From Croceivirga sp. (GTDB lineage: Bacteria; Bacteroidota; Bacteroidia; Flavobacteriales; Flavobacteriaceae), in NCBI GenBank assembly GCA_028281025.1, contig JANQKR010000013.1, forward strand, positions 558,001-622,000: DNA of 64,000 nt. The letters run 5' to 3'. Numbering within the stretch: the first letter of the stretch is position 1; each line of letters begins with the position of its first letter. This document shows positions 19,401 to 38,934 of this stretch, piece by piece. Made by a program: the position numbers and the translations under genes. The notes under the pieces were generated by a model that saw only the letters and a program-made list of their open reading frames with translations, was not told where the DNA came from and did not search any database.

Positions 19401-19444
19401 GTTATCCAGGTTACCGACCCATCGGTAAAAGGTGGTTACCTTTG
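19401..19444 (+). promoter_or_regulatory. Crp/Fnr-type activated promoter of the SulP gene
   Basis: The imperfect palindrome GTTATCCAGGTTAC (19401-19414) is centred 29.5 bp before a perfect -7 element, TACCTTTG (19437-19444). There is no TTTG at -33, as expected when an activator replaces that contact. The predicted transcript starts at about the gene's ATG (19450), so the mRNA may be leaderless. Confidence 0.75.
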
Positions 19445-19449
19445 TGGCC

Positions 19450-21174
19450 ATGTTAAAACGGTATTTCCCAATATTGGAGTGGTTGCCCAATTACAAGAGG
19501 GCATACCTTTCCGGGGATATTTCAGCGGGGATAACAGTAGGTGTCATGTTGATACCGCAGGGAATGGCCTATGCCCTTATTGCCGGCCTGCCCCCGGTAT
19601 ACGGGTTGTACGCTGCCCTGGTCCCCAACCTACTTTACGCCTTTACGGGCTCCAGTAGAAAACTGGCCGTTGGCCCAGTAGCCTTGGATTCCTTGATCGT
19701 GGCCTCAAGTTTGGCAGCCATGAAACTGGCGAATATGGAGGATTATATTGCCATGGCCCTTTTTTTGGCATTGTTGGTCGGGGTTTTGCAACTGTTCATG
19801 GGATTCTTCCGAATGGGTTTTTTGGCCAACTTTCTTTCCAGGCCCGTGGTCAATGGATTTACTTCGGCAGCGGCACTGGTCATTGCCGTGAGCCAATTAA
19901 AATACCTCTTTGGTCTGGAACTGGAAACCATAGGCACTTTTTCTACTTTTAGAGCGGTACTCCAAAACCTGGGGCAAACCAATTTTTATGACCTTTCCAT
20001 TGGAATTGGGGCCATTCTGGTCATTTGGGTCTTAAAAAAACTGAACCGTAAGCTTCCGGCTGCCATGTTGGTGGTCATCCTCTCCATTATTGGCATCTAT
20101 TTTTTTATGGTAAACGAAACCGATGTCCATATTCTGGGTACTGTCCCCCAGGGATTGCCGGTCTTTGTACTCCCAAAGTTTACAATGTCACAGTTGGTCA
20201 TAGCCCTCCCCACGGCCTTGGCTTTGGCTTTTATCGCTTTTGCAGAGGCCATGACCATTGCCAAAGCGGTTGAGCAACAATCCAATGACCAACATACGGA
20301 GCCAAACCAGGAATTGAGGGCGTTGGGTTTCTCCAATCTCATAGGTTCCTTTTTTCAATCCTTTCCGACCAATGCTGGCTTGTCACGAACCGCAGTGAAT
20401 GTGGAAGAAGGGGCCCAAACAGGTTTCGCTTCAATTATAAGTGCCACCATAGTTGGAGCAACATTGCTCTTTTTGACCCCGTTTTTTTACTATTTGCCCA
20501 AGTCCGTTTTGGGAGCCATTATTTTGGTAGCGGTCTACAGCCTTATTGACATGCAATACCCGAGACAATTGCTCAAACAACAAAAGGATGAATTTGTTTT
20601 GTTCCTAATTACCTTTTTCACCACACTTCTAATTGGAATATCCGAAGGCATCATTTTTGGGGTATTGTTCTCCTTGGTCCTGTTGGTGTATAGAATCTCC
20701 AAACCCCATATTGCGGTTCTTGGAAAAATAAAGGGGATGGAGTATTTTAAGAATATAAATCGTTTTAGTGAAGAGGTGGAAGTTCATGATGCGGTCCTAA
20801 TGATACGTTTTGATGCCCAATTGTTTTTTGCCAATGTGCAGTATTTCAAAACTGCCCTGTTAAAGGAAGTGGATAAAAAGGGTGAAGCCCTAAAATATGT
20901 CATTCTCAATGCCGAACCTGTAAATTACTTGGACGATACCGCGGCTAAGCAATTACAGACCTTGATCGTACAGTTGCGTGATAGGGGTATTGTCTTTAAA
21001 CTGGCCGGGGCCATTGGTCCCCTACGTGACATTCTTAAAAAAAGTGGATTGGTGGAGGTAATAGGCCAGGACAATATCTATGTGAGAACGGCAGAGGCCT
21101 ATGCGGATAGTTTGGAAAAAGTGGAGCGTACCGCCATTCAGGAAAAAGTTTCACTCCAACACAAAGAATTGTAA
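19450..21174 (+). CDS. SulP-family sulfate/anion permease with STAS domain
   Basis: A 574-residue SLC26/SulP transporter. The N-terminal GDISAGITVGVMLIPQGMAYALIAGLPP signature region, the VGPVALDSL segment and ~12 membrane helices are followed by a cytoplasmic STAS domain (~440-560; VILNAEPVNYLDDTA). ATG 19450 is chosen over the GTG at 19432 because the -7 element (19437-19444) lies downstream of that GTG. Likely role: sulfate or related anion movement, linked here to the sulfite-to-sulfate pathway of the island; the direction of transport cannot be read from sequence. Confidence 0.92.
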   Translation: MLKRYFPILEWLPNYKRAYLSGDISAGITVGVMLIPQGMAYALIAGLPPVYGLYAALVPNLLYAFTGSSRKLAVGPVALDSLIVASSLAAMKLANMEDYIAMALFLALLVGVLQLFMGFFRMGFLANFLSRPVVNGFTSAAALVIAVSQLKYLFGLELETIGTFSTFRAVLQNLGQTNFYDLSIGIGAILVIWVLKKLNRKLPAAMLVVILSIIGIYFFMVNETDVHILGTVPQGLPVFVLPKFTMSQLVIALPTALALAFIAFAEAMTIAKAVEQQSNDQHTEPNQELRALGFSNLIGSFFQSFPTNAGLSRTAVNVEEGAQTGFASIISATIVGATLLFLTPFFYYLPKSVLGAIILVAVYSLIDMQYPRQLLKQQKDEFVLFLITFFTTLLIGISEGIIFGVLFSLVLLVYRISKPHIAVLGKIKGMEYFKNINRFSEEVEVHDAVLMIRFDAQLFFANVQYFKTALLKEVDKKGEALKYVILNAEPVNYLDDTAAKQLQTLIVQLRDRGIVFKLAGAIGPLRDILKKSGLVEVIGQDNIYVRTAEAYADSLEKVERTAIQEKVSLQHKEL

Positions 21175-21178
21175 TTAT

Positions 21179-21222
21179 GTGACAAAAGTTACCACCTTTT
21201 TAAGGTGTTACCCCTAATTTTG
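21179..21222 (+). promoter_or_regulatory. Crp/Fnr-type activated promoter of the persulfide dioxygenase operon
   Basis: GTGACAAAAGTTAC (21179-21192) keeps the GTnAC-N4-GTTAC core and is centred exactly 29.5 bp upstream of the -7 element TAATTTTG (21215-21222). Although the palindrome is the weakest of the set, the identical spacing argues it is functional. The CACCTT/AAGGTG inverted repeat between them (21193-21207) is an additional structure. Confidence 0.65.
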
Positions 21223-21240
21223 AATTAAATTTTTAGCGAG

Positions 21241-22650
21241 ATGAACATAGAACAGATATACACCGGATGCTTGGCTCAAGGGGCCTATTATATTGAAAGT
21301 GAGGGAGAGGTGGCCATTATAGACCCCCTTCGTGAGGTACAACCGTATCTTGAGCGTGCAAAACGGGATAAGGCTAAGATCAAATACATTTTTGAAACCC
21401 ACTTTCATGCCGATTTTGTGAGTGGCCATGTAACCCTTTCCAGGGAAACCGGGGCCCCAATAGTATATGGTCCCAGCGCCAAACCCTCCTTTGAGGCCAT
21501 TATTGCAGAAGATGGTCAGGCGTTTCCCTTGGGGAAGCTTACGATCATAGCGTTGCACACCCCGGGGCATACTATGGAAAGCACTACCTATTTGTTGCGG
21601 GATGAAAACGGAAAAGATCATGCCATTTTTAGTGGGGATACCCTTTTCCTGGGCGATGTGGGACGACCTGATCTGGCACAAAAAGCAGCCAATATGACCC
21701 AAGAAGAACTGGCCGCCACCTTATACGATAGCCTTAGGACCAAGATCATGCCCCTGGCAGATGATGTCATTGTATATCCTGCGCACGGTGCGGGTTCTGC
21801 CTGTGGCAAAAATATGATGAAGGAAACGGTGGATACGTTGGGGAACCAGAAGCAAATGAACTATGCCCTACGGGCCGATATGACCAAGGAAGAGTTTGTG
21901 AAGGAGGTTACAGACGGATTATTGCCCCCTCCCCAATACTTCCCCTTGAACGTTAAAATGAACAAGGAAGGATATGATGATATTGAAGACGTTATCGAAC
22001 GCGGAGCCGTTGGGCTGCCCCCGGAAGCTTTTGAAACCGCGGCCAATGAGACCGGAGCAGTGGTATTGGACGTTCGTCACCAAAGTGATTTTGCCAAAGC
22101 ACATATCCCCAGATCCATTTTTATTGGTTTGGGCGGGAGCTTTGCCCCTTGGGTGGGCGCTTTGATTGCCGATGTAAAACAACCTATTTTGTTGATTACC
22201 CCCGAAGGTAAGGAAGAAGAAACCATAACCCGACTCTCCAGGGTTGGTTTTGATGGTACCATAGGGTTTTTAAAAGGGGGTCTGGAGGCTTGGATAGCTG
22301 CCGGTAAGGATACGGATAGCGTAACAAGCATGGATGCAGAAACCTTTAAGGCCCATGTTGAGGCAAAGGCACCCATCTTTGACGTTAGAAAGGAAACGGA
22401 ATACAATGCGGAACACTTGGTAGATGCCCACTTAACGCCCCTCGATTTTTTAAATGACCACCTGGCGGCGTTTCCAGCAAAGGACACCTTCTACGTGCAC
22501 TGTGCCGGAGGCTACCGAAGTATGATAGCGGCCTCCATCCTAAAAAGTCGTGGTATCCATAATTTGGTGGATGTTGCGGGAGGATTTGGAGCCATTAAAA
22601 AAGCGGGAATCAAAACTACCGACTTTGTTTGTCCAACAACTTCAAATTGA
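21241..22650 (+). CDS. persulfide dioxygenase (ETHE1-like) fused to two rhodanese domains
   Basis: A 469-residue fusion. Residues 1-~240 are a metallo-beta-lactamase fold with THFHADFVSGH (His54, His56, Asp58), His110 and Asp133; His54, His110 and Asp133 match the mononuclear iron ligands of ETHE1-type persulfide dioxygenases, which turn glutathione persulfide plus O2 into sulfite. Two rhodanese domains follow (~265-360 and ~370-465). The first lacks a loop cysteine (LLITPEGKEE), so is probably structural; the second has an intact CAGGYRS loop. It is the central sulfur-oxidising enzyme of the island and heads an operon with the HMA and rhodanese genes. Confidence 0.9.
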   Translation: MNIEQIYTGCLAQGAYYIESEGEVAIIDPLREVQPYLERAKRDKAKIKYIFETHFHADFVSGHVTLSRETGAPIVYGPSAKPSFEAIIAEDGQAFPLGKLTIIALHTPGHTMESTTYLLRDENGKDHAIFSGDTLFLGDVGRPDLAQKAANMTQEELAATLYDSLRTKIMPLADDVIVYPAHGAGSACGKNMMKETVDTLGNQKQMNYALRADMTKEEFVKEVTDGLLPPPQYFPLNVKMNKEGYDDIEDVIERGAVGLPPEAFETAANETGAVVLDVRHQSDFAKAHIPRSIFIGLGGSFAPWVGALIADVKQPILLITPEGKEEETITRLSRVGFDGTIGFLKGGLEAWIAAGKDTDSVTSMDAETFKAHVEAKAPIFDVRKETEYNAEHLVDAHLTPLDFLNDHLAAFPAKDTFYVHCAGGYRSMIAASILKSRGIHNLVDVAGGFGAIKKAGIKTTDFVCPTTSN

Positions 22651-22654
22651 TACT

Positions 22655-22927
22655 ATGAAAACTACAATTGCCATTCAAAATTTAAAGTGCGGTGGTTGTG
22701 CTGCCACTATTAAAAACAAAGTAAGTGAACTTGAAGGGGTGGATACCGTTGAAGTCGATGAATTGGAAGGCGCGGTAAGTGTTGAGTATGCCCCCGAAAA
22801 TGTACTTTTGGGCATAAAACAAAAGCTGGCGGCTCTGGGCTATCCCGAGGTGGATAGCGAAAATGGGCTGCTTACCAAAGCAAAGTCTTTTGTGAGCTGC
22901 GCCACCGGTCGACTATCAAAATCATGA
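22655..22927 (+). CDS. heavy-metal-associated (HMA) domain protein
   Basis: A 90-residue soluble protein with the ferredoxin-like HMA fold: metal or sulfur-binding motif KCGGCAATI (Cys13, Cys16), and GVDTVEVDELEGAVSVEYA typical of copper chaperones. An extra C-terminal tail adds a third cysteine (FVSCATG). It starts 4 bp after the dioxygenase stop and overlaps the next rhodanese start (ATGA), so it is tightly coupled to sulfur genes rather than copper genes. It may buffer copper made toxic with sulfide, or carry persulfide; both are inference. Confidence 0.85.
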   Translation: MKTTIAIQNLKCGGCAATIKNKVSELEGVDTVEVDELEGAVSVEYAPENVLLGIKQKLAALGYPEVDSENGLLTKAKSFVSCATGRLSKS

Positions 22928-23295
22928 AGCATTACTTGCTTTGTTGCCTGTTCTTAGGTTTAATTCTTTCCTGTAAAGAGGAAACGCCTGCAAAGATCAC
23001 TATTGTGGACAAGACCTTTTTTCAGAAAGAGGTTCTTGGGAAAGAGGTACAATTGGTGGATGTGCGTACCCAGGAGGAGTACGAATCCGGGCATATCGAT
23101 GATGCCCTTAACTTTAACATTATTGATAAAAAAACCTTTTTGGACCAGATAGAAGGCCTGGACAAAGAAGAACCGGTGTACCTGTATTGCAGAATGGGAG
23201 GGCGTAGCAATAGGGCTGCGGAATTGATGAAAGAAAAAGGATTTACCCAAATATTTGATTATTCGGGCGGTTATAATGATTGGATGGGGAGGTAA
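22924..23295 (+). CDS. rhodanese-domain lipoprotein
   Basis: A 123-residue single-domain sulfurtransferase with a lipoprotein signal (LGLILSC), placing it in the periplasm or on a membrane. The rhodanese fold is complete: VDVRTQEEYESGHIDDALNFN and the active loop CRMGGRS, with the persulfide-forming cysteine. It is the third gene of the dioxygenase operon and overlaps the HMA gene by four bases. It probably handles sulfane sulfur outside the cytoplasm. Confidence 0.88.
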   Translation: MKHYLLCCLFLGLILSCKEETPAKITIVDKTFFQKEVLGKEVQLVDVRTQEEYESGHIDDALNFNIIDKKTFLDQIEGLDKEEPVYLYCRMGGRSNRAAELMKEKGFTQIFDYSGGYNDWMGR

Positions 23296-23413
23296 TGGAG
23301 TGGTTCCAGTGGACCAAGCCAACATACGGGGATTCCAGGTATTCCCATACAACCCTGCAAAGGCACGGGCTTTCAATTAATTGCTTTTCACAAAGAAAAA
23401 CTTTCCGGACAAT

Positions 23414-23457
23414 GTAACCCAGGTTACTGTGGCAAACGCCCTCCTGAACTATTTTTA
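23414..23457 (+). promoter_or_regulatory. Crp/Fnr-type activated promoter of the rhodanese-cytochrome-thioredoxin genes
   Basis: A perfect palindrome, GTAACCCAGGTTAC (23414-23427), is centred 29.5 bp before the -7-like TATTTTTA (23450-23457), and 50 bp before the rhodanese start codon. This is the best half-site match in the window and defines the consensus GTAACC-NN-GGTTAC. Confidence 0.8.
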
Positions 23458-23476
23458 GACCAAAATACAAGGTAAC

Positions 23477-23821
23477 ATGTCCATATTCAATAGGCTATTC
23501 GGCAAGGAAGGGATTTCAGATAAGGTCAAGGTCCTATCAAAAGCGGATTATGCACAAGCCATAAATGGAGGTAATGTGCAACTGGTAGACGTTAGAACGG
23601 CAAGGGAATTCCGCTCCGGCCATATAAAAGGGGCCAAAAACATCGACTTTTTTAGTTTGGGCAGCTTTAACGCATCGTTTGAAAAAATGGATAAGAACAA
23701 AGCGGTTTATCTCTATTGCCAATCCGGTAACCGTAGCCAAAAAGCGGCAAAACGATTGGTTAAAATGGGTTTTGAAACTGTCATTGATCTTTCCGGGGGA
23801 TACGGTGCCTGGTTGCGGTAG
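23477..23821 (+). CDS. single-domain cytoplasmic rhodanese
   Basis: A 114-residue rhodanese without a signal peptide. It shows VDVRTAREFRSGHIKGAKNIDFF and the active loop CQSGNRSQKA. It has its own Crp/Fnr-type promoter, separate from the dioxygenase operon. Likely function is persulfide relay in the cytoplasm, feeding the dioxygenase or accepting sulfur from imported thiosulfate. The cytochrome c/DUF3365 gene follows after 9 bp. Confidence 0.9.
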   Translation: MSIFNRLFGKEGISDKVKVLSKADYAQAINGGNVQLVDVRTAREFRSGHIKGAKNIDFFSLGSFNASFEKMDKNKAVYLYCQSGNRSQKAAKRLVKMGFETVIDLSGGYGAWLR

Positions 23822-23830
23822 TGTAAAACC

Positions 23831-24850
23831 ATGATTCCAATGGCGAGACCATCCCTTCTCCTGATGACCATTTTACTGTTGTCCCTCTCCTGTAAAAATC
23901 AAAGAGGGGACAATACGGACATTCCCGATAGTATTGAATATACATTTTCACCAACGGACTACGGTGAGGGCAAAAAGCTCATGGCGCAACAATGTTACCT
24001 ATGCCATAGTCCAACAGCGTCCCAAAAAGAGGGCAGGGTAGGGCCTCCCATGATAGCGATCAAGGCCCATTACCAACAACACTTTACCAATAGGCAAATG
24101 TTCCTGGATTCCTTTGTCCAATTTGTAATGGACCCAAAGGCATCCAATGCCAAATTAAAAGGCGCGGTACGAAGGTTTGGATTGATGCCGAAACAGATAT
24201 TTCAAAGGGACGAAGTTGAAAAGATGGCTGCCTATCTCCATGATTACCAAATTGAGGAACCCGATTGGTTTGAAGCACATTGGGCCTCCCATGGTTTTGA
24301 GCCGTATACGAACAGGGAGCAAAAGAAATGGATTGGGGAGGAGGATAAGGGCTATGCCGAAATTGGGCTGTCCTATGCCTTGGGCACAAAAAAGGTGCTG
24401 GGGGCCAACCTCATGGGGGCATTACAAGAAAAGGGGCCGGTTGAAGCCGTTACATTTTGCAATGAAAGGGCCTATCCCCTTACCGATAGTATGTCCGTAG
24501 TTTTTAATGCCAAGATCAAACGGGTGACCGATAGACCACGTAACCCGAGCAATACTGCCAATGAAAGGGAGTTGAAACATATGAAAACGTTTCAAACCCT
24601 GGTCCTCAACAATGAAAAGCTTGTGCCCGTTGTAGAGGATTTGGAGGAAAAGGTACAGTTTTATTATCCCATAGTCACCAATGACCTATGTTTGAAATGC
24701 CATGGAAACCCCAAAACGGATGTATCTTTGGAGGTACGGAACCTCTTACAGGAAAAGTATCCCAATGATAAGGCCTTGGGCTATGGTATCAATGAGGTTA
24801 GGGGAATTTGGAGCATAACTTTTGATAAACGGGAAAATGTCGAGTTTTAA
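23831..24850 (+). CDS. c-type cytochrome lipoprotein with DUF3365 domain
   Basis: A 339-residue exported protein: lipobox LLSLSC, a first cytochrome c-like domain with CYLCH (residues ~56-60), then a DUF3365/Tll0287-like sensor domain containing a second haem motif, CLKCH, and ending [11 protein letters not shown], the typical end of that domain. DUF3365 proteins are haem-based redox sensors or electron carriers. Lying between a rhodanese and a thioredoxin, it may take electrons from, or report on, periplasmic sulfur oxidation; this is inferred from context. The thioredoxin start lies 14 bp inside its 3' end. Confidence 0.8.
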
Positions 24851-25124
24851 GGAAATCATCACAGGGGACAAACCGGTCCTAATCGATTTTTATGCCACGT
24901 GGTGTGGCCCATGTCAAACCATGATGCCCATTTTGGAACAGGTCAAGGACCAAGTGGGGGATGCGGCAAAGGTCATTAAGATAGATGTGGATAAAAACCA
25001 GGCTTTGGCGCAAAAATATCAGGTGCGCGGCGTACCCACCTTAATGGTCTTTAAAAATGGGGAATTGGTGTGGCGGCAATCCGGCGTAGTGCAGGCCAAT
25101 CAGTTGGTAGGGTTGCTAACTTGA
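24837..25124 (+). CDS. thioredoxin
   Basis: A 95-residue thioredoxin with the WCGPC active site ([14 protein letters not shown]) and the cis-proline loop [11 protein letters not shown] 24837 is inside the end of the cytochrome gene, overlapping by 14 bp, which indicates translational coupling. As the last gene of the rhodanese unit it most likely reduces rhodanese or protein persulfides, releasing sulfide, in the sulfur pathway. Confidence 0.9.
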
Positions 25125-25220
25125 GGATATAGCCAACTTTACTGATATGCTCTAAAAAGGCATCCTTCGTACCTATAGATTGCCTAGGTTTTCTTGCAAT
25201 CGCTGAGTACGTTACCGAGC

Positions 25221-26285: not shown

Positions 26286-26518
26286 TTTTAAATTTTCAGG
26301 TAAACTTTGGACTTTTGCTTTACTACAGGCAGCGGGAAGGGCCACGCTTAGAGCAGCCCTGGGCGCTGTTTGTCCAAACGAAGTTACAAAAGAATCAAGG
26401 GAGCATATGGGTCGCATCCCCGAAAAGACAACCCAATTAAAGAAATCAAATGAAGGGATACAGCCCCAATGCTCGGTTCCATACTATCGTATTTTGGAAT
26501 ATGGCCGTGCGCCGGGTT

Positions 26519-29498: not shown

Positions 29499-29957
29499 TT
29501 ATTCCAATTCATACCAATCCACATTGGTGAGGTTTTGCCTTCGACCTTTACGCTCGGGGCCATAGTTTTTGGTCAAATACGCCACTATCTTCCCATGGTT
29601 GGCTCCCAAATCCCATAGGTTTTGTGTTTCCTGCATCCAGGTAATGGTAGCTTCCCAGCCTTCTTTGCTCATTCGGTTTTGCGTTACCAATTTGGCCGAA
29701 TGGCATTGGGTGCAATTTTGAATAACACCCGATACCCCTTCGTCATTGATAAATCCCGATTGTGCAATGGTTTGGGCATCCAAGGGTACCGTTTCGGATT
29801 CATCCACAGGCAAGACTTCATAGACCTCTCTAGATTTTAAGGCGTCCGGATGGTTCTTCAGATAAAAAATCCCTATAAATACCATTACCAACAAAAGCCC
29901 AAAGACCGTGAGTAACCTGCCCAACGATGTAATCTGTTTCCGGAAGTTTTCCTGCAT
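29499..29957 (-). CDS. membrane-anchored c-type cytochrome (sulfite dehydrogenase partner)
   Basis: A 152-residue protein with one N-terminal membrane anchor (residues ~13-33) and a single haem motif CTQCH (~83-87). The rest is a small cytochrome c domain with possible distal ligand in SKEGWEATITWMQ. It lies 1 bp downstream of the molybdenum enzyme gene, the arrangement of SorAB and SoxCD sulfite dehydrogenases, so it is most likely the electron acceptor of that enzyme in the periplasm. Confidence 0.85.
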   Translation of the reverse strand: MQENFRKQITSLGRLLTVFGLLLVMVFIGIFYLKNHPDALKSREVYEVLPVDESETVPLDAQTIAQSGFINDEGVSGVIQNCTQCHSAKLVTQNRMSKEGWEATITWMQETQNLWDLGANHGKIVAYLTKNYGPERKGRRQNLTNVDWYELE

Positions 29958-29958
29958 C

Positions 29959-31188
29959 TTAAACTACTTTTAGGGCAATACGGTGGCAGGCGTTGTTCAA
30001 ATAGCCCTTTGGGTTCCATCCGGGCAACACCATGGGCTGGCTTTTTCCTGTGCTGTCCGTGGCCTTGGCCCAAATTTCATAATACCCCTTTTTAGGGAAA
30101 TTTACCTGTGCCCTAAAATGCTGCCAAGCCAATCGGTTTACGGGCTTTTCCAGGGTACACCCATGCCAGGTACTTCCAAAATCAATGGAGTAGTGAACCT
30201 GGAAAACTTCCAGCTCCCCAGCCCAGGCATGTCCGTTAATGACCAGGCTCTTCCCTTTTTTAAGAAGTGCCCCGCTCTTTGGATAGGTAATTAAGGACTT
30301 TACGGGCATGGATTCAATAATGCACATATTTTCGTCCGTCACTTCACTGCCGGGAGCAACGCTTTCACAAGGGACCCGATAAGAGGCACCTCCCATTTTG
30401 GCGCCATCATGTACCTGGTTTCGGATACTGATGCGTTGTATCCATTTTCCGGAAGCGGAAGCTGGCCAACCACCACAGACCAAACGTAGGGGGTAACCAT
30501 GTGCCAGGGGAATATCCTTTCCATTCATCTGAAAAGCCAGAAGGGTTTCCTCTTGCATGGCCTTTGAAATGGGCACTCCACGGGAAATGGGCTCTTTTTT
30601 GGGGTCGCCACTCAAATGGGTATCCGCCGCATGGTAACCAATGTATACGGCCTCGGATTTTATACCCACATCCTGGAGTAGATCACGTAACCGAATCCCT
30701 GTCCAGTTGGCACAGGAAACTGCACCTATGGTCCATTGGTTCCCTTTGGCAGGGGGATCGAACTCGCTTCTGCCATTGCCTCCGCACTCCAAGGTCAGTT
30801 GATAGGTGTGTTGGGGAAATTTTGTCTTTAAATCCGCCAGCGAATACACTTTTTTCCGTTCTGCGGCTTCACCATCAATGGTTAATGTCCAATTGTCGGC
30901 ATCTATCCGTTCTGGTAGTATCCCATTGTTTCGGATAAACATGTACCTGTTTGGGGTAATGGCATCGTTCAGAAGATGGGCCTTGGCCTCAATATTCCAG
31001 GGACGGTCGTTCAAAACCGTCATTTCCCTATCCTTATCGAACAGTGAAAAAGGGTCTGGGTCCTGAAGCGCCAAGGGAACGTAATTTTTGGGAATGGTAC
31101 CGGCAAAGGCAACCGGGGTGCCAATTACACTGGCAATTCCCGCCATTGTCAAGCTTTTGGAGAAATCCCTTCTGTCCATACCTTGCAA
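29959..31188 (-). CDS. sulfite dehydrogenase, molybdenum subunit (SorA/SoxC type)
   Basis: A 409-residue sulfite-oxidase-family molybdopterin enzyme. The N-terminus MDRRDFSKSLTMAG carries a Tat-like RRDFSK motif, so it is exported folded. The Mo-ligand cysteine is in LTLECGGNGRSEF, and a SoxC-like dimerisation domain follows (KSGALLKKGKSLVINGHAWAG, VHYSIDFGSTW). It oxidises sulfite to sulfate and passes electrons to the cytochrome encoded next. The start at 31188 is taken; Met4 (31179) is also possible. Its promoter carries the island's Crp/Fnr-type operator. It needs Mo cofactor, made with moaE/moaC near 50 kb. Confidence 0.9.
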   Translation of the reverse strand: MQGMDRRDFSKSLTMAGIASVIGTPVAFAGTIPKNYVPLALQDPDPFSLFDKDREMTVLNDRPWNIEAKAHLLNDAITPNRYMFIRNNGILPERIDADNWTLTIDGEAAERKKVYSLADLKTKFPQHTYQLTLECGGNGRSEFDPPAKGNQWTIGAVSCANWTGIRLRDLLQDVGIKSEAVYIGYHAADTHLSGDPKKEPISRGVPISKAMQEETLLAFQMNGKDIPLAHGYPLRLVCGGWPASASGKWIQRISIRNQVHDGAKMGGASYRVPCESVAPGSEVTDENMCIIESMPVKSLITYPKSGALLKKGKSLVINGHAWAGELEVFQVHYSIDFGSTWHGCTLEKPVNRLAWQHFRAQVNFPKKGYYEIWAKATDSTGKSQPMVLPGWNPKGYLNNACHRIALKVV

Positions 31189-31197
31189 GATTCAATT

Positions 31198-31241
31198 TAA
31201 AACTAAGATAAAAAATGTGGTCGTTGTGTAACCGAGGTTAC
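31198..31241 (-). promoter_or_regulatory. Crp/Fnr-type activated promoter of the sulfite dehydrogenase operon
   Basis: A perfect palindrome, GTAACCGAGGTTAC (31228-31241), is centred 29.5 bp from the first base of the minus-strand -7 element TAGTTTTA (31205 to 31198). The predicted start site is a few bases before the ATG at 31188. Spacing is identical to the other sulfur promoters. Confidence 0.8.
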
Positions 31242-31272
31242 CAAAAGTAAGATGGAAGTACGGTTATATTTG
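31228..31272 (+). promoter_or_regulatory. divergent Crp/Fnr-type promoter of the small membrane protein genes
   Basis: The same palindrome faces a plus-strand -7 element, TATATTTG (31265-31272), with a centre-to-element distance of 30.5 bp, one base more than the others. The predicted transcript starts at or next to ATG 31276. One operator therefore seems to serve two divergent promoters. Confidence 0.6.
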
Positions 31273-31275
31273 AAG

Positions 31276-31374
31276 ATGAAACTGAAGAAATGGCAAAAAC
31301 TTATCATGGTCTGCCTTATCTGTGCTGGCATGGTGACCGTAGCGGTTTTGTTCATTGAACGTTTAAATATATAG
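31276..31374 (+). CDS. 32-residue single-pass membrane protein
   Basis: A short ORF that begins at the predicted transcript start of the divergent sulfur promoter. It encodes a basic N-terminus (MKLKKWQK) and one hydrophobic helix, MVCLICAGMVTVAVLFI, with two cysteines. Its stop is 2 bp before the DUF2892 gene, consistent with an operon. No family is recognised. Position and membrane-helix design make it likely real. Confidence 0.6.
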   Translation: MKLKKWQKLIMVCLICAGMVTVAVLFIERLNI

Positions 31375-31376
31375 CT

Positions 31377-31583
31377 ATGAGAAAAAATATGGGTGGATTG
31401 GATCGTATCGTGAGATTGGTTATTGCTGCCATAGTGGGCACCTTATATGTTACAGGGGTGGTGCAGGGTACTTTGGGGTATGTGCTTTTGGCCTTGGCCG
31501 GTATTTTTGTGCTCACCTCCTTTATAAGCTTTTGTCCGTTGTACGCCCTTGTAGGGCTCAGTACGTGCCGAAGAAAGAATTAG
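31377..31583 (+). CDS. DUF2892 (YgaP-transmembrane-like) membrane protein
   Basis: A 68-residue protein of the DUF2892 family: MGGLDRIVRLVIAA, two membrane helices, and the conserved FCPLYALVGLSTC tail with two cysteines. This domain is the membrane part of YgaP rhodaneses and often accompanies sulfur-relay genes. It is expressed with the small membrane protein from the divergent sulfur promoter and is closed by a strong terminator. Function probably involves sulfur or persulfide handling at the membrane. Confidence 0.88.
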   Translation: MRKNMGGLDRIVRLVIAAIVGTLYVTGVVQGTLGYVLLALAGIFVLTSFISFCPLYALVGLSTCRRKN

Positions 31584-31600
31584 TTTTTTGGTTGAATGTA

Positions 31601-31635: not shown

Positions 31636-31712
31636 ATGGGGGTTTGGGGCAAAATTGAGATTTATCATGTTTTGGCGATCATACTGATTTTAAATTTGGC
31701 GAACTAAACCAA

Positions 31713-31847: not shown

Positions 31848-32009
31848 TTTTTTACCGGTCACAGCCGTATTCCTTATGCCGGTCTTTTGTTGGATTTTTG
31901 GTTTCCGACAAATGGCCCACTTTTGTATTGCCATTAGGGGACTATCTTTCATTCAGCTTCTTCACACCCCAACACTTTTCTTAGCTCTTTTTAAGGACTT
32001 TTAATCAAG

Positions 32010-32053
32010 GTAACCAATGTTACTGTGCCGGCCACAGGGTCAACGTAGCTTTG
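32010..32053 (+). promoter_or_regulatory. Crp/Fnr-type activated promoter of the export/thiosulfate-uptake operon
   Basis: GTAACCAATGTTAC (32010-32023) is centred 29.5 bp before a perfect -7 element TAGCTTTG (32046-32053). The site overlaps the ATG at 32017, ruling that out as the TolC start; ATG 32071 lies downstream of the predicted start site. Confidence 0.8.
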
Positions 32054-32070
32054 GACTCAAATTCAAAACG

Positions 32071-33384
32071 ATGACGATTAGACTTTGGGTTGGTACATTG
32101 ATTCTATGTGGGGGGGTCCTGCCCCTTAAAGCACAACAGCTCAAACCCATTACGCTGAATGAGGTATTGATGAAAGTGCAGGAATCCAATACGGATATTA
32201 GGATATCGGAATTTGAACTTACCGAAGCGCAAGGGGACTTTACCATGGGTAATGCCATCTTTCTGCCCACTATTTCGATTTCCCATACCGGTATGGCAAC
32301 GACCAATCCCCTAATGGCCTTTGGCACAAAACTGAACCAAGAAATCCTTACGGCTGCGGATTTTAATCCGGATTTGCTTAACGACCCGGATCAGATAGAG
32401 AACTACGCGACTACTATTGTCATAGAACAACCCCTGATCAATATGGATGGCCTTTTTCAGCGAAAGGCCGCCAAATCTACCATGGAAGCAAGGGAGCAAC
32501 AGGTTTACAGAACCAAGGATTATCTGGCGTTTGAAGCAACCCGTGCATTCATGCAACTACAGTTGGCCCATAAGCGTGTTGAAGTTCTTGAAAAAGCGGT
32601 CAAAGCGGCCCTGGCCAATGAAGCTATGGTTGCCGATCGTTTTGGGGAAGGTCTGTTGCAAAAGGCGGATTTGTTGCAGGCCAAGGTAAGGACCACGGGG
32701 ATGGAGAACCAATTGATTTCTGCGCAAAGCAACTTGAGCAATGCTTCCGACTATCTTGCTTTTTTGATGGATGAGGATGTAGGGGGGGACTATATTCCCA
32801 CCAAGGAATTGGAACTGGCGGAATACGTTATGGTGGATACTGACCGTGCCCTTGAGGATCGCCCCGATGTAAAGGCCCTGGAGTTGGTTTCAAAAGCATA
32901 TCGTTCGACCTACAAAGCGGATAAAATGGCCTTTTTGCCGCGGTTAAATGCATTTGGCTCCTATCAACTCTTCGATGATGATCTTTTTCAGGCCAATTCC
33001 CAAGGCTACACCTTTGGTGCGAGTTTGAGCTGGGACGCGTTTCAAGGAGCCAAACGCTTTGCCAAAATCAAAAAAAGTCGGGCCACCTATGAAAAGGCAC
33101 AAGTGGCCTATGAACACTATCGCTCAAAGAGCGAACTGGAACTGCAAAAAGCAGGGAGAATGCTACTTGACGCGAAAAATCGTGCATCCACCTCTGCCTT
33201 AACACTGGAACAGTCCGCGGAAACCTTACACATACGTTCCAATCGATTTAAGGAGGGCCTTGAAAGCACCTCGGAACTTTTAAGGGCAGAGGCGCAATAC
33301 GCCGAGAAGGAACTGGACCATTACAATGCGATTTATGAATACAATTACGCTGTGGCGTACCATAATTTTTTAACCAAAAGATAA
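32071..33384 (+). CDS. TolC-family outer-membrane efflux protein
   Basis: A 437-residue outer-membrane channel. A signal peptide (MTIRLWVGTLILCGGVLPLKAQ) precedes two OEP repeats, seen as long heptad-rich helices (AREQQVYRTKDYLAFEATRA..., KAQVAYEHYRSKSELELQKA). The start is set at 32071 because the promoter lies over the upstream in-frame ATG. It would form the exit duct of the RND system encoded next. The head position in the Crp/Fnr-controlled operon ties export to sulfur stress. Confidence 0.9.
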   Translation: MTIRLWVGTLILCGGVLPLKAQQLKPITLNEVLMKVQESNTDIRISEFELTEAQGDFTMGNAIFLPTISISHTGMATTNPLMAFGTKLNQEILTAADFNPDLLNDPDQIENYATTIVIEQPLINMDGLFQRKAAKSTMEAREQQVYRTKDYLAFEATRAFMQLQLAHKRVEVLEKAVKAALANEAMVADRFGEGLLQKADLLQAKVRTTGMENQLISAQSNLSNASDYLAFLMDEDVGGDYIPTKELELAEYVMVDTDRALEDRPDVKALELVSKAYRSTYKADKMAFLPRLNAFGSYQLFDDDLFQANSQGYTFGASLSWDAFQGAKRFAKIKKSRATYEKAQVAYEHYRSKSELELQKAGRMLLDAKNRASTSALTLEQSAETLHIRSNRFKEGLESTSELLRAEAQYAEKELDHYNAIYEYNYAVAYHNFLTKR

Positions 33385-33385
33385 A

Positions 33386-34477
33386 ATGACACAAAAGATT
33401 TCAATATACGGTTCCAAAAGATGGCTGTTCCCACTGATGGCAAGTCTTTTTATAATGGCTTGTGGAGACGTAAAGGAACGGGATGCTCATCAGAAGGATA
33501 GGATATCGGTCACTGTAGCTACGGTAGGTATGGGAATGGAGGAGTACCTAACCGTGGGTAGTGGGCAGGTCACTGCAGTGAACAGTACCACTTTGAGCAC
33601 CCGTATGATGGGGCATGTGGAGCGTACTCCCGTAAAAGTTGGGGAAGCGGTGGACAAGGGCGATTTGTTGGTGGTAATCAACAATAGGGACCTCAGGGCC
33701 AGAAAAGCCCAGGCGACTGCGAGTGTTATGGAGGCCCAAGCTTCCTTTACCAATGCCAAAAAGGATCATGAACGCTATGTAAACCTTTTTGAAAAGAACA
33801 GTGCCTCGCAAAAAGAACTTGAGGATATGAGCACCCGCTATGAAAGGGCCAAGGCGAGATTGGCAGCAACACAGGAACTGGGCAAAGAGGTTGAGGCCCA
33901 ATTTGCCTATGCAAACGTTCGGGCGCCATTTAAAGGTGTAGTGACCAACACTTTTGTAGATGTGGGGACAATGGCCAATCCTGGTGCCCCTTTGATCTCG
34001 ATGGAAGCACCAGGGGCGTATGAAGTGACGGCCAGAATTCCTGAAAATAAGATCAGCGGTATTGCAGTGGGTATGAAAGCCAAGGTCACCATTAAGGTTT
34101 TGGACACCGTACTCATTGGGGAATTGACTGAACTCAGTACTTCAGCAACCAGGACCGGCGGGCAATATTTGGCTACCGTTGAGCTTCCGGACACCCCTTC
34201 TTCGGTGCGGTCCGGGATGTACGCCGCCGTGGCCTTTCCTGCAACAGGTGTCACCCCAAAAACGGTTGTCGTGCCCAAAGAAGCACTGGTGGAACAAGGA
34301 CAGCTCACGGGAATATATACCATAGGGCAGAACAATACAGCCATTCTACGTTGGCTGCGTTTGGGGGAAACTTTGGACAATGGCGTGGAGGTATTGTCCG
34401 GATTGTCAGAAGGGGAAACTTATATCACGGCCTCCCAGGGAAAATTGTTCAATGGCGCAAAGGTCAGTACGCAATAA
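33386..34477 (+). CDS. RND periplasmic adaptor (membrane fusion) lipoprotein
   Basis: A 363-residue HlyD/AcrA-like adaptor with lipobox FIMAC near residue 26. A lipoyl half (GHVERTPVKVGEAVDKGDLLVVI), a coiled-coil hairpin (~105-155), the second lipoyl half (ANVRAPFKGVVTN) and beta-barrel domains follow in the standard order. It starts 1 bp after the TolC stop. It bridges the RND pump and TolC channel. Confidence 0.92.
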   Translation: MTQKISIYGSKRWLFPLMASLFIMACGDVKERDAHQKDRISVTVATVGMGMEEYLTVGSGQVTAVNSTTLSTRMMGHVERTPVKVGEAVDKGDLLVVINNRDLRARKAQATASVMEAQASFTNAKKDHERYVNLFEKNSASQKELEDMSTRYERAKARLAATQELGKEVEAQFAYANVRAPFKGVVTNTFVDVGTMANPGAPLISMEAPGAYEVTARIPENKISGIAVGMKAKVTIKVLDTVLIGELTELSTSATRTGGQYLATVELPDTPSSVRSGMYAAVAFPATGVTPKTVVVPKEALVEQGQLTGIYTIGQNNTAILRWLRLGETLDNGVEVLSGLSEGETYITASQGKLFNGAKVSTQ

Positions 34478-34487
34478 AGACGAATAA

Positions 34488-37400
34488 ATGAAAGAAGGTC
34501 TAGCAGGAAAGATTGCCAAAGGATTTATGACATCGAGACTTACGGTGCTCTTGATGGTCGTATTCATGGTCATCGGGATTTACAGTTCATTTTTGATTCC
34601 AAGGGAGGAGGAACCTCAGATTGATGTCCCCATGGCAGATATTTTTGTGGGCTATCCCGGGGCAAATCCAACTGAAGTGGAGTCACGTATCACCAAGCCG
34701 CTTGAGAAAATCATTTCGAATATCAAGGGAGTTGAATACGTGTATTCCACTTCCATGAAAGAAGCGGGCATGGTTATCGTACAGTTCTATGTTGGGGAGG
34801 ATATTGAGCGGTCGTTGGTGAGACTGTACGATGAGATCAACAAGCATATGGACCAAATGCCCCAGGGAGTCACCATGCCTTTGGTCAAGACCAGGGCCAT
34901 TGATGATGTCCCCATGCTTTCATTGACCTTGTGGAGCGAAACCTATGATGACTATCAATTGGGTCAAATTTCAAATGAGCTGCTCAACGAAATTGAAAAG
35001 GTGAACGATGTAGCCATTACCAAAAAGATAGGGGGTAGAGATCGGCAGCTGCGTGTAGTTTTGGATAAAGAAAGAATGGCCGGGAGCGGACTTGACTTTT
35101 TAAGAATTGCCGAAGTCATAAAAGCGAACAATGTACAAATGGGAGCAGGGGATTTTTATGCCAATGATACGGAGTTTCATGTAACAAGCGGAACGTTTTT
35201 GTCCTCAAAGGAAGATGTTGAAAACCTCGTTGTGGGTACATTGGAAAGCCAGCCCATATATCTCAAACAGGTGGCAGAGGTCATTGATGGGCCGCAGTTG
35301 GCCAACACCTATGTTTCCTTTGGATACGGTGGTGCCAGTGGGAAGACCAGCGCGTTTCCTTCCGAATACCCCGCCGTTACCTTGTCCATTGCAAAGCGAA
35401 AGGGAGCGGACGCCATGAAAATTGCCGATAGGGTACTGCAGAAGGTGGAACACCTTAAAAGAACCCTATTGCCCAATGAAGTTCATGTGGCAGTCACTCG
35501 AAATTATGGGGAAACGGCTTCACAAAAAGTATCTGAACTATTGCTGCACCTAATTGGTGCCATCATTGCCGTAACCTTTGTGGTTATGTTGGCCATGGGC
35601 TGGCGCGGGGGTCTGGTGGTATTTTTGTCCGTACCCATCACCTTTGCCCTCACACTGCTCAGCTACTATATGTTGGAGTATACGTTGAACCGCATCACCC
35701 TTTTTGCATTGGTCTTTGTAACCGGTATTGTGGTGGATGATTCCATCATCATAGCCGAGAACATGCACCGTCATTTTAAAATGAAGCGATTGCCGTTCAA
35801 AGATGCCGCCCTTTTTGCCATAAATGAGGTGGGCAACCCAACTATTTTGGCCACGTTTACGGTCATTGCTTCGGTATTGCCAATGGCTTTTGTTTCGGGC
35901 TTAATGGGGCCGTATATGTCGCCAATGCCCATTGGGGCCTCAATTGCCATGCTGTTGTCCCTTTTTGTGGCCTTGACCATCACGCCTTATCTCGGTTATC
36001 TGTTTTTACGGGAAAAAGACAGGAAGAAAAGTGAAAAGACGACGGTAGAAATTCAGGATTCCGTTATCTTCAAAACCTACGCGCGGTTCCAACGCCCATT
36101 AATCGAAAACCGAAAAAAAAGATGGTTGTTCATCGGGGTTACCGTTATATTGCTTTTGGGTTCGGTAGGGTTGTTCTTCACCAAATCCGTAGCGGTAAAA
36201 ATGCTTCCATTCGATAACAAGAACGAATTTCAGGTCATTATTGATATGCCGGAAGGGACAACACTGGAGCGGACGGCGGTGGTGACCAAGGAAATTGCTT
36301 CCTATTTGGCCTCAAGGCCCGAGGTGGTGGATTATCAGGCCTATGTGGGGACTTCCGCGCCCATTACCTTTAATGGTTTGGTACGGCATTACGATTTGCG
36401 CGGAGGGAGCAATATGGCCGATATTCAGGTAAACCTTGTGGATAAACACGATCGAAATGTACAAAGCCATGATATCGCCAAAATGTTACGGCACCGGATA
36501 CAGGAAATTGGGGCTTCCTATAAGGCCAATGTAAAAGTGGTCGAGGTGCCGCCGGGACCCCCTGTGCTCTCTACCATAGTGGCCGAAATCTACGGTCCCG
36601 ATTATGAAAAGCAGATCGCTTTGGCCGATGGGGTGAAGACCATTCTTGAAAATACCGCTGATGTGGTGGATGTGGACTGGATGGTCGAAGCGGACCAAAA
36701 GCAATATGATTTTGTGGTAGATAAAGAGAAGGCGTTACGCTATGGGGTCAACACGGCCCAAATTGTACATACCTTGAATATGGCCATGGCCGAACGTCCC
36801 GTAACCTATCTGTACCAAACAAATGCCTTTGATCATATTGGAATTGTATTGACGTTGAGTGAGAACGACCGCTCGGGATTGGATAATCTAAAACAAATAC
36901 GTGTGGTCTCCAAAGATGGACAAACGCTTCCCATTGGGGATTTGGTCACTATTACAGAAACCACCAAGGACAAAAGCATCTATCGCAAGAACCAAAAAAG
37001 AGTGGTCTATGTCACCTCCGATATGGCAGGGGATTTGGAAAGCCCCGTTTATGCCATTTTAGGGATGACCGATAAACTAAGGGATTTGGAACTCCCCAAA
37101 GGATATGGGATAAACGAATTGTATATGTCCCAACCCGAGCATGAAGATGATTTTACCATAAAATGGGATGGGGAATGGCAGATTACGCTTGAGGTGTTCC
37201 GTGATTTGGGAATTGCCTTTTTAGGGGTAATCGTCATCATCTATATGTTGATTGTGGGGTGGTTCCAAAATTTTAGGGCACCATTGGTTATGATGGTGGC
37301 GATACCCCTATCGTTAATAGGGATAGTCCTGGGCCATTGGATTCTGGGCGCTTTTTTCACGGCAACCTCATTTATTGGTATGATAGCCTTGGCGGGAATC

Positions 37401-37682
37401 ATGGTAAGGAATTCGGTCTTACTTATTGATTTTGTCAATCTGCGAACACAGGAAGGGGTTCCTTTAAAACAAGCGGTAATTGAAGCTGGAGCAGTCAGGA
37501 CAACGCCCATTCTACTAACGGCCGGAACGGTGGTCATCGGGGCCTTTGTGATTTTGTTCGACCCCATATTTCAGGGCTTGGCGATTTCTTTGATGGGGGG
37601 TACCATTGCCTCTACCGTGTTGACCTTGTTGGTGGTGCCCCTGGTCTACTATATGATGGAACGTAAAAATGAAACAAAATGA
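34488..37682 (+). CDS. RND-family efflux transporter (inner-membrane pump)
   Basis: A 1064-residue 12-helix RND pump with two large periplasmic loops. The family N-terminus (MTSRLTVLLMVVFMVIGIYS), the EPQIDVPMADIFVGYPGA segment, and the fourth-helix proton-relay aspartates in FVTGIVVDDSIIIAENMHRH are present, as is a second-half AGIMVRNSVLLIDFVN. It groups with putative metal or hydrophobic-compound pumps by length, but substrate motifs are unclear. In this operon, with thiosulfate transporters and under sulfur control, a sulfur-compound or metal substrate is plausible, but unproven. Confidence 0.93.
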   Translation: MKEGLAGKIAKGFMTSRLTVLLMVVFMVIGIYSSFLIPREEEPQIDVPMADIFVGYPGANPTEVESRITKPLEKIISNIKGVEYVYSTSMKEAGMVIVQFYVGEDIERSLVRLYDEINKHMDQMPQGVTMPLVKTRAIDDVPMLSLTLWSETYDDYQLGQISNELLNEIEKVNDVAITKKIGGRDRQLRVVLDKERMAGSGLDFLRIAEVIKANNVQMGAGDFYANDTEFHVTSGTFLSSKEDVENLVVGTLESQPIYLKQVAEVIDGPQLANTYVSFGYGGASGKTSAFPSEYPAVTLSIAKRKGADAMKIADRVLQKVEHLKRTLLPNEVHVAVTRNYGETASQKVSELLLHLIGAIIAVTFVVMLAMGWRGGLVVFLSVPITFALTLLSYYMLEYTLNRITLFALVFVTGIVVDDSIIIAENMHRHFKMKRLPFKDAALFAINEVGNPTILATFTVIASVLPMAFVSGLMGPYMSPMPIGASIAMLLSLFVALTITPYLGYLFLREKDRKKSEKTTVEIQDSVIFKTYARFQRPLIENRKKRWLFIGVTVILLLGSVGLFFTKSVAVKMLPFDNKNEFQVIIDMPEGTTLERTAVVTKEIASYLASRPEVVDYQAYVGTSAPITFNGLVRHYDLRGGSNMADIQVNLVDKHDRNVQSHDIAKMLRHRIQEIGASYKANVKVVEVPPGPPVLSTIVAEIYGPDYEKQIALADGVKTILENTADVVDVDWMVEADQKQYDFVVDKEKALRYGVNTAQIVHTLNMAMAERPVTYLYQTNAFDHIGIVLTLSENDRSGLDNLKQIRVVSKDGQTLPIGDLVTITETTKDKSIYRKNQKRVVYVTSDMAGDLESPVYAILGMTDKLRDLELPKGYGINELYMSQPEHEDDFTIKWDGEWQITLEVFRDLGIAFLGVIVIIYMLIVGWFQNFRAPLVMMVAIPLSLIGIVLGHWILGAFFTATSFIGMIALAGIMVRNSVLLIDFVNLRTQEGVPLKQAVIEAGAVRTTPILLTAGTVVIGAFVILFDPIFQGLAISLMGGTIASTVLTLLVVPLVYYMMERKNETK

Positions 37683-37864
37683 AAAATAGGATTGTAAGGG
37701 CCGTAGCGGGGAGCTTTGTACTCATCAGCTTGCTATTGGCGGTGTATGTGAATATAAATTGGTTATGGTTTACTGCCTTTGTGGGTGCCAATTTATTGCA
37801 GTCGTCCATTACCAAATGGTGCTTAATGGAAGATATTTTAAGGAAATTGGGCGTAAAGGACTAG
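37679..37864 (+). CDS. DUF2892 membrane protein, second copy
   Basis: A 61-residue DUF2892 protein: MKNRIVRAVAGSFVLISLLLA, second helix WLWFTAFVGANLLQSSITKWC, and a conserved cysteine in KWCLMEDILRKLG. Its start overlaps the RND stop by four bases (ATGA), showing coupling. The SITKWCxMExILRKLGxK ending is the commoner flavobacterial form; the copy at 31377 is the variant. Confidence 0.88.
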   Translation: MKNRIVRAVAGSFVLISLLLAVYVNINWLWFTAFVGANLLQSSITKWCLMEDILRKLGVKD

Positions 37865-37958
37865 TTTTTGTCCCATTTGTCAGGTATGGGGCCAATGGCC
37901 GGGGTCAAGGGATATGTTTCTTAGGGTTATTTGTGCATTTTTGTAAAAAATACGAGTA

Positions 37959-38516
37959 ATGGAAGCAATATACAACCCTTGGCCCTGGTATGTTTCTGGG
38001 CCTTTGATTGCATTGACCATGGCAATTTTGATTTTATTGGGCAAACGGTTTGGTATGTCTTCAAACCTGGAGACCTTTTGCTCGATGGGAGGCGCCGGGA
38101 AATTTGTGGATTATTTTAAGGTGGACACAAAACCCCGAAGGTGGAATCTGATGGTAGTCCTTGGGACGGTCATTGGAGGTTTCATTGGCGCCAATGTGCT
38201 ATCCCCGCAAGATCAAGTGGCCATAAACAAGAAAAGCGTCGAGACTTTGAAAACATTTGGTTTTGATAGTGCCGGGGAAGCCTATTTACCTACGGAGTTG
38301 TTCTCGGCCCAATCCCTATCGGACCCCAAAATATGGGCGATTTTACTTGTTGGGGGCTTTCTGGTAGGTTTTGGCGCCCGATACGCGGGTGGCTGCACAT
38401 CCGGTCACGCCATTTCTGGATTAAGCAATCTACAGATTCCTTCGTTGATTGCCGTCATTGGTTTTTTTGTAGGTGGACTGGTCATGGTCCATATGGTGTT
38501 CCCTTTAATTTTTTAG
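37959..38516 (+). CDS. YeeE/YedE thiosulfate-transporter protein, first half
   Basis: A 185-residue membrane protein of the YeeE/YedE (TsuA-like, DUF395) family. The hallmark cysteine motif is in GARYAGGCTSGHAISG, within about five hydrophobic helices. In single-chain TsuA, conserved cysteines line the thiosulfate path; here the transporter is split into two genes 4 bp apart. It probably imports thiosulfate or related sulfur. It closes the Crp/Fnr-controlled operon with its partner. Confidence 0.88.
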   Translation: MEAIYNPWPWYVSGPLIALTMAILILLGKRFGMSSNLETFCSMGGAGKFVDYFKVDTKPRRWNLMVVLGTVIGGFIGANVLSPQDQVAINKKSVETLKTFGFDSAGEAYLPTELFSAQSLSDPKIWAILLVGGFLVGFGARYAGGCTSGHAISGLSNLQIPSLIAVIGFFVGGLVMVHMVFPLIF

Positions 38517-38520
38517 TGCT

Positions 38521-38934
38521 ATGCGAAGTATTAGCTATGTGTTGGTCGGCGTTTTTTTTGGAATAGTGCTGTTTAAATCGGAAGCTGCCTCCTGGTTTCG
38601 GATATATGAGATGTTTCAGTTTGATAGTTTTCATATGTATGGCATTATGGGTTCTGCCCTGATATTGGGTGCGTTGTTCACCCAATGGGTCAAAAAATCG
38701 GGAACAAAATCGTTTTTTGGCGAGAAAATCAGCATTGTGCCCAAGGAAAAAGGGTATGTCCGTTATGCCATTGGAGGTATTCTTTTTGGCTTGGGATGGG
38801 CATTGGCGGGAGCTTGTCCAGGACCCATGTACGTATTGGTGGGAGCGGGGTACTGGCCCATTCTTATTGTACTGGGAAGTGCTGTGTTTGGGGCCTTTTG
38901 CTATGGCCTGTTGCGGAGGAAATTACCGCATTGA
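38521..38934 (+). CDS. YeeE/YedE (DUF6691) thiosulfate-transporter protein, second half
   Basis: A 137-residue membrane protein complementary to the preceding one. It has four hydrophobic helices and the second cysteine motif, LAGACPGPMYVLVGAG, which matches the C-terminal half of TsuA-type transporters. The gene starts 4 bp after its partner. The two chains together presumably form one thiosulfate or sulfane-sulfur uptake channel. Confidence 0.88.
   Translation: MRSISYVLVGVFFGIVLFKSEAASWFRIYEMFQFDSFHMYGIMGSALILGALFTQWVKKSGTKSFFGEKISIVPKEKGYVRYAIGGILFGLGWALAGACPGPMYVLVGAGYWPILIVLGSAVFGAFCYGLLRRKLPH

Follow-up and report, generated by a model that had tools for sequence, protein, structure and literature searches.

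A GTAAC-N4-GTTAC operator at reactive-sulfur genes of Flavobacteriaceae and its candidate Crp/Fnr-family activator

The stretch of Croceivirga sp. DNA analysed here, 64,000 nucleotides in length and termed the window (positions 558001-622000 of contig C37 in the 5.1-Mb genome G000), carries genes for the oxidation and movement of reactive sulfur whose promoters share an operator of the form GTnAYnnnnGTTAC, placed at a near-fixed distance from a TAnnTTTR -7 element. Comparison with related genomes makes it very likely that proteins of the clade of the Crp/Fnr-family regulator encoded at position 14373 act as class II activators of reactive-sulfur genes, with GTAAC-N4-GTTAC centred at about -41.5. 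The comparisons support a Crp/Fnr sulfur regulon in many Flavobacteriaceae, with a predictable promoter architecture and a putative sensor, that is undescribed as far as searched.

Five sites in the window match the operator pattern (19401, 21179, 23414, 31228 and 32010; Table 1), and the matches counted by strand number 8 against 0.58 expected, a count that none of 100 shuffles reached. An earlier note on this DNA had listed six promoters with the motif; the six promoters stand, while the operators number only five, the palindrome at 31228 being common to two divergent promoters. The spacing that the note had given to five of them, 29.5 bp from the operator centre to the T of the -7 element, recurs exactly as a spacer of 22 nucleotides (N22) at 19437, 21215, 23450 and 32046 on the plus strand and at 31205 on the minus strand, and its sixth promoter, one base pair longer, appears as the N23 spacer between the operator at 31228 and the plus-strand element at 31265. 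Likewise, TTG is found at -33 in none of the six spacers, the note having indicated the absence of TTTG there, so that the promoters look activator-dependent. By convention, the T of TAnnTTTR lies near -12, and we infer on this basis that the operator occupies the class II position at -41.5.

Beyond the window, the earlier note had asked whether the motif might be equally frequent with the same spacing in random intergenic DNA. The bare 14-mer is indeed common, with 50 occurrences genome-wide on both strands against 416 for a reversed control word, but the 14-mer followed by N22 and TAnnTTTR occurs only 6 times in the genome, 5 of them in the window, and the reversed control gives none. The sixth genomic promoter site (C28:62828) lies upstream of a DUF983 gene and is found again in relatives; allowing two mismatches in the same genome brought no gain (7 extra matches against 9 in the control). 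The search of related genomes that the note had proposed was run on 60 of them without presetting the spacer (GTAACN4GTTAC-N{8,38}-TAnnTTTR), the genus group of the window including G003 and G004, and the fixed 22-nt spacer emerged in 77 of 114 matches, from 31 genomes, with 9 further matches at N21, 5 at N23 and 2 at N20, whereas the 27 spacers outside 20-23 average 0.8 matches each. With the relaxed operator, the N22 promoter is present in 36 of the 60 genomes and in 26 of 46 genera, and the frequency of TTG in the -33 region, for which no separate background was drawn, is 0-3% at each position tested among 276 unique sites.

The regulator and the operator are linked by several patterns of co-occurrence, among genomes whose relatedness makes Fisher values overstate independence. 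The 14373 protein exceeds the cut-offs of both PF00027 (41.4 bits) and PF13545 (32.7 bits), which places it in the Crp/Fnr superfamily. Eighty named loci (1.52 Mb), the best 80 of 579 confirmed, were picked solely for encoding a relative of this protein, and they contain GTAACN4GTTAC 211 times, against a mean of 1.3 and a maximum of 12 for 59 permuted half-sites; GTAAC ranks at the top of all 1024 possible half-sites, with 171 -7 elements at N22, and for 165 of the 211 sites such an element lies on one side or, in 6 cases, on both. A perfect site is present in 72 of the 80 loci and lies within 250 bp of the regulator gene in 52, compared with at most one of 80 for permuted half-sites. The named loci overlap the 60-genome set (L176 with G004:C59, L178 with G003:C1), so a few sites are counted twice.

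Presence across genomes follows the same course. Relatives of the 14373 protein, which often abut the operator, occur in 49 of the 60 genomes at E<=0.001 and in 38 at a score of at least 205 bits, and the N22 promoter is found in 32 of these 38 genomes against 4 of the 22 without such a regulator. At the level of the order (146 genomes), the strict promoter occurs in 26, and every one of these encodes a regulator match at E<=1e-25; the promoter is thus found in 26 of the 96 genomes with such a match and in 0 of the 50 without, many of these 50 being reduced genomes of about 0.6 Mb. Closer matches (E<=2e-74) sharpen the contrast, to 22 of 30 genomes against 4 of 116, and within genus g47 the promoter is present in all 4 genomes that have a close orthologue but in 1 of 13 with a distant match only. 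In these comparisons the regulator and the operator are strongly coupled.

The genes that follow the operator were surveyed at 288 N22 sites, of which 180 come from the named loci and 108 from 35 genomes of the 60-genome set other than that of the window; 277 have a downstream open reading frame (ORF) of at least 50 aa, and 11 were dropped (5 of the 108 and 6 of the 180). Families were named from one representative each or from the window homologue, start codons were set by a simple rule, with approximate leader lengths, and a terminal stop and a small alteration at the 5' end in four minus-strand window queries left the matches used unaffected. Sixteen recurring families account for 255 of the 277 ORFs: persulfide dioxygenase-rhodanese (53), TauE/SafE (39), DUF983 (25), rhodanese (23), TolC of the TolC-MFP-RND type (20), YgaP-like TM (14), SulP (13), SQR/FCSD-like oxidoreductase (12), the regulator itself (11, two in the same genome), fatty-acid hydroxylase (11), AhpC-type peroxiredoxin (10), SorA (8), cytochrome bd subunit I (6), Thioredoxin_9 (4), DUF302 (3) and cytochromes related to that at 23831 in the window (3). 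A pair of DsrE-like proteins is among the other 22 ORFs. Because the regulator stands in the middle of each named locus, its neighbours are favoured; the genome-wide set alone places 92 of 103 ORFs in the recurring families. The functional coherence that the earlier note had seen in the target genes is borne out by the sulfur genes that recur in relatives. Its description of the island as complete was too strong, with no sulfide:quinone oxidoreductase among the scanned island proteins, to which the search was confined, and the two YeeE genes at 37959 and 38521 having no operator of their own here.

Under the proposed mechanism, a dimer of the 14373 protein would bind GTAAC-N4-GTTAC with GTA/TAC contacts like those of NtcA, through a recognition helix with Arg-Val where CRP has Arg-Glu, and the operator, 22 nt upstream of TAnnTTTR and centred near -41.5, would stand in for the missing -33 element. 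The activator would thereby switch on the oxidation, trans-sulfuration and movement of reactive sulfur by persulfide dioxygenase, rhodaneses, SulP, SorA and YgaP-TM and, in relatives, would also act on TauE, an SQR-like enzyme, cytochrome bd, peroxiredoxin and the regulator gene itself. The sequence comparisons themselves show the operator, its spacer, the set of target genes and the link between regulator and operator; binding by the 14373 protein, activation rather than repression and control of the target genes are what we infer from these patterns.

In the recognition helix, R182, V183, S186 and R187 do not vary among 26 orthologues, the specificity pair in 191 relatives (187 distinct) is Arg-Val in 138 and Arg-Glu in 53, and this label changes only twice on a quick tree. 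At order level, among 77 hand-picked regulators (loci L256-L335 having been chosen by hand from about 131 matches), a perfect site lies within 3 kb of 12 of 28 Arg-Val but only 4 of 49 Arg-Glu regulators, and one of the four lies in a locus that also encodes an Arg-Val regulator. The Arg-Glu paralogue group, with its invariant Cys77, is common in the order (L256-L258, L272 and others), and an enumeration of palindromes for an operator of its own yielded nothing that stood out.

Regarding the signal, it comes close to an even call that sulfane sulfur, as persulfide or polysulfide, reacts with Cys77 together with Cys83/84 at the place where CRP holds cAMP. C77 is present in all 191 relatives and C83 in 146, both positions are also Cys in 3dv8, the closest match among solved structures, and the Cys77/Cys83 loop presumably takes the place of the cAMP-binding cassette of CRP. 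The Glu of the CRP motif GELGL, which contacts cAMP in CRP, is an insertion relative to the profile of the 14373 family in the alignment. Two publications provide further context: pdo transcripts rose with NaHS in sediment, with Bacteroidota among the phyla named (PMC12345210), and a Crp-like protein of Acinetobacter is persulfidated while glutathione acts on Vfr and PrfA (PMC7315123). Taken together, the target set and the NaHS-induced pdo transcripts point to reactive sulfur as the signal. The fullest form of this proposal, a Crp/Fnr-fold activator whose cAMP pocket has been rebuilt as a Cys77-Cys83/84 persulfide switch and which runs the sulfide/persulfide response of Flavobacteriaceae from one -41.5 operator, is tentative and falls somewhat below an even chance; such a response would span a dioxygenase, a sulfite dehydrogenase, a bd-type oxidase, an RND pump and a leaderless CxxC microprotein.

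Several observations weigh against parts of this account. Six of the 38 genomes with a good regulator (at least 205 bits) lack the N22 promoter, as do 8 of the 30 order-set genomes with a close match, whereas 4 of the 22 genomes without a good regulator have it, G041 even without any regulator match; moreover, the thresholds of E 2e-74, 205 bits and score 250 were chosen after the tables had been seen. The regulator gene itself has no operator in the window genome. Arg-Val proteins have a perfect palindrome within 3 kb in 11 of 12 cases above a profile score of 250 but in only 1 of 16 below, and with distant Arg-Val relatives mostly lacking a site the helix alone is no predictor of the operator. 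The spacer search contains a small, unexplained excess at N9 (6 matches in 5 genomes, the largest of the other spacers). To our knowledge, no sulfur role is on record for TolC-RND systems, DUF983 or fatty-acid hydroxylases. Lastly, C83 is present in 119 of the 138 Arg-Val proteins and absent in 19, and C77 is also invariant in the 53 Arg-Glu paralogues, so the cysteines may serve another purpose. Beside these stand some observations on the sites themselves: in G019, one of the six misses, a perfect palindrome lies directly beside the regulator at N21; in L266, L267, L269 and L270, loci of close orthologues in genomes without the N22 promoter, perfect palindromes by the regulator precede, at N22, a degenerate -7 element judged by eye; and the N9 matches (G000:C9:11041, G004:C11:11182, G014, G029 and G024) may be chance or coding-sequence matches.

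Another purpose for the cysteines is the core of the strongest alternative, in which the same regulator and operator answer a different signal, Cys77 ligating heme or an Fe-S cluster that senses NO, CO, O2 or redox state in a response to respiratory poisons that takes in both the sulfur genes and cytochrome bd. Heme-thiolate Crp proteins exist, CooA being an example; C77 does not vary even in the Arg-Glu paralogues, where C83 is often missing, and the operator precedes the gene for cytochrome bd subunit I in 6 loci. Most target families, however, are sulfane-sulfur or sulfite genes, the NO-linked hcp is absent from 58 of the 60 genomes searched, that of the window included, and no conserved histidine lies near C77 in the orthologue alignment, so this alternative is rather unlikely.

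A second alternative keeps the sulfur signal and reverses its effect, making the operator mainly a repressor site relieved by reactive sulfur, in the manner of CstR or BigR. Known persulfide regulators of similar genes do include repressors, and BigR controls a yeeE/yedE/pdo2 operon (PMC7315123), but the site lies upstream of the -7 element and 22 nt clear of it, and its fixed class II spacing is what an activator requires, which leaves repression improbable. It is more improbable still that another Crp/Fnr protein binds the operator and 14373 is merely its neighbour. This possibility draws on the window genome, where the first site is 4.4 kb away from 14373, which has none of its own, and on the paralogues present in several genomes; against it, the operator lies within 250 bp of the orthologue in the 52 loci mentioned above and upstream of it in 11, its presence tracks the 14373-type regulator, and the three other HTH_Crp_2 proteins above cut-off in the window genome have Glu instead of Val at the specificity position in a by-eye alignment. 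Chance or a non-regulatory repeat, for which only the 50 genomic occurrences of the relaxed 14-mer speak, is rejected as practically negligible given the enrichment, the exact phasing to -7 elements and the recurrence of the promoter in 26 of 46 genera.

Activation by the 14373 clade thus remains the favoured account, and the features to which it applies in the window are collected in Table 1, together with their neighbours.

Table 1. Operators, -7 elements and genes of the sulfur island, in window coordinates
Feature	Position	Strand	Remarks
Crp/Fnr-family regulator, 210 aa	14373..15005	+	cNMP_binding fold and HTH_Crp_2; helix SARVVISRLL; C77, C83, C84
Operator GTTATCCAGGTTAC for sulP	19401..19414	+	pattern scan
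-7 element TACCTTTG	19437..19444	+	N22 from operator
SulP-family transporter with STAS domain	19450..21174	+	ATG 5 nt past -7 element, probably leaderless
Operator GTGACAAAAGTTAC for PDO operon	21179..21192	+	
-7 element TAATTTTG	21215..21222	+	
Persulfide dioxygenase-type MBL-rhodanese fusion	21241..22650	+	best PDB matches 3tp9, 3r2u (MBL-rhodanese)
HMA-domain small protein	22655..22927	+	domain match
Rhodanese-domain protein	22924..23295	+	domain match
Operator, perfect palindrome GTAACCCAGGTTAC	23414..23427	.	
-7 element TATTTTTA	23450..23457	+	
Rhodanese	23477..23821	+	domain match
c-type cytochrome with Tll0287-like domain	23831..24850	+	domain match
Thioredoxin	24837..25124	+	
Fatty-acid hydroxylase family protein, 3' of SorAB	28621..29496	-	weak OlsE match
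SorB-like cytochrome subunit	29499..29957	-	weak match, under cut-off
SorA-type Mo sulfite dehydrogenase	29959..31179	-	nearest SorA-family sulfite dehydrogenases, below equivalog cut-off
-7 element TAGTTTTA for sorA	31198..31205	-	N22
Operator GTAACCGAGGTTAC, common to divergent promoters	31228..31241	.	
-7 element TATATTTG	31265..31272	+	N23
32-aa membrane-like microprotein with CxxC	31276..31374	+	begins 3 nt past -7 element, precedes YgaP-like gene
YgaP-like_TM (DUF2892) membrane protein	31377..31583	+	domain match
Operator, palindrome GTAACCAATGTTAC	32010..32023	.	
-7 element TAGCTTTG	32046..32053	+	
TolC-family outer membrane channel	32071..33384	+	profile match
Membrane fusion protein	33386..34477	+	profile match
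RND permease (AcrB family)	34488..37682	+	profile match
YeeE/YedE-type Sulf_transp protein	37959..38516	+	profile match; without own operator
Second YeeE half (Sulf_transp / DUF6691)	38521..38934	+	profile match

Additional features of individual targets emerged alongside. Six of 13 sulP genes, two of them from one genome, begin 4-7 nt past the -7 element; the short distance is seen in the window and in G004, G005, G028, G036 and G050 and suggests a conserved leaderless sulP mRNA. The regulator gene in Croceivirga starts 4 nt after its -7 element, and these apparently leaderless genes lend slight support to the placement of the operator near -41.5. The microprotein pattern K-KWQKL--VC-IC is found in 12 distinct operator-linked sequences from the window genome and its relatives, one of them a nested shorter reading, and the differences among operator-linked sequences by codon position (261/159/402) suggest coding constraint. 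Relatives of the fatty-acid hydroxylase stand directly after the operator in 11 named loci (L179, L181, L186 and others), a hint that membrane lipids may change in sulfur stress. DUF983, under the operator in 25 loci, is found just before the regulator gene in several of them (L179, L181, L182, L186 and L193 near 9534), and the TolC gene of the pump at 32071-37682 recurs at the operator in 20 loci.

The near-exact operator spacing and its occurrence in 26 of 46 sampled genera mean that much of the regulon can be read from sequence. Flavobacteria are abundant in the sea, and the operator ties DUF983, the RND pump, the fatty-acid hydroxylase and the microprotein to sulfur stress. It also makes it possible to test clearly whether a protein of the Crp fold can sense persulfide. 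One sediment study names Bacteroidota as one of the principal groups with type III persulfide dioxygenase (PMC12345210), and the persulfide regulators found in the literature searched (CstR, SqrR/BigR, FisR, YgaV) belong to other protein families. No Crp/Fnr sulfur regulon in Bacteroidota was found among the papers listed from open-licence literature, where phrase matching may miss 'Crp/Fnr' with a slash, and a term search of a review of H2S and reactive-sulfur physiology gave no 'FNR' and gave 'Crp' only in two reference titles (PMC9774590). The earlier note had known of no described flavobacterial regulon with this motif; the regulon was indeed not found described, but the motif itself has been published for HcpR2 and fits the NtcA core.

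Among known systems, CstR, SqrR/BigR and FisR act on the same kinds of targets (pdo, rhodanese, yeeE, sqr) and differ in protein family and mode, CstR being CsoR-like and BigR ArsR-type, both repressors, and FisR a sigma-54 activator. CRP, DNR and FNR share the fold and the predicted class II position, and the earlier note was right to see the 5-4-5 geometry of FNR; the half-site, however, is GTAAC instead of TTGAT, and the 14373 protein, which has no Cys before C77, lacks the N-terminal Cys cluster of FNR. Membership of the CRP family proper was rejected (PRK11753, 50.8 of 266 bits). HcpR2 of Bacteroides, Clostridium and Thermotogales, also of the Crp/Fnr family, has the same consensus, GTAACnnnnGTTAC, in Rodionov 2005, whose genomes include Bacteroides (PMC1274295), but it has Pro at 181, where the 14373 protein and 138 of its 191 relatives have Val and 53 have Glu, and its regulon is hcp, whereas the window genome has no Prismane match and only 2 of the 60 genomes have one; with helix residue and regulon both different and hcp absent from the window genome, membership of HcpR2 was likewise rejected. 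NtcA, whose sites read GTAN8TAC near -41.5 with a -10 box (PMC3898017), controls nitrogen genes and answers 2-oxoglutarate, whereas the predicted targets of 14373 are sulfur genes and the inner half-site bases AC/GT of the operator are fixed; the 14373 protein also falls outside the NtcA family (TIGR03697, 43.5 of 244.95 bits). As a Crp-family protein with an Arg-Val recognition helix and a site near -41.5 whose core, GTAN8TAC, includes GTAACN4GTTAC as a subset, NtcA is nevertheless the closest working parallel to the regulator proposed here.

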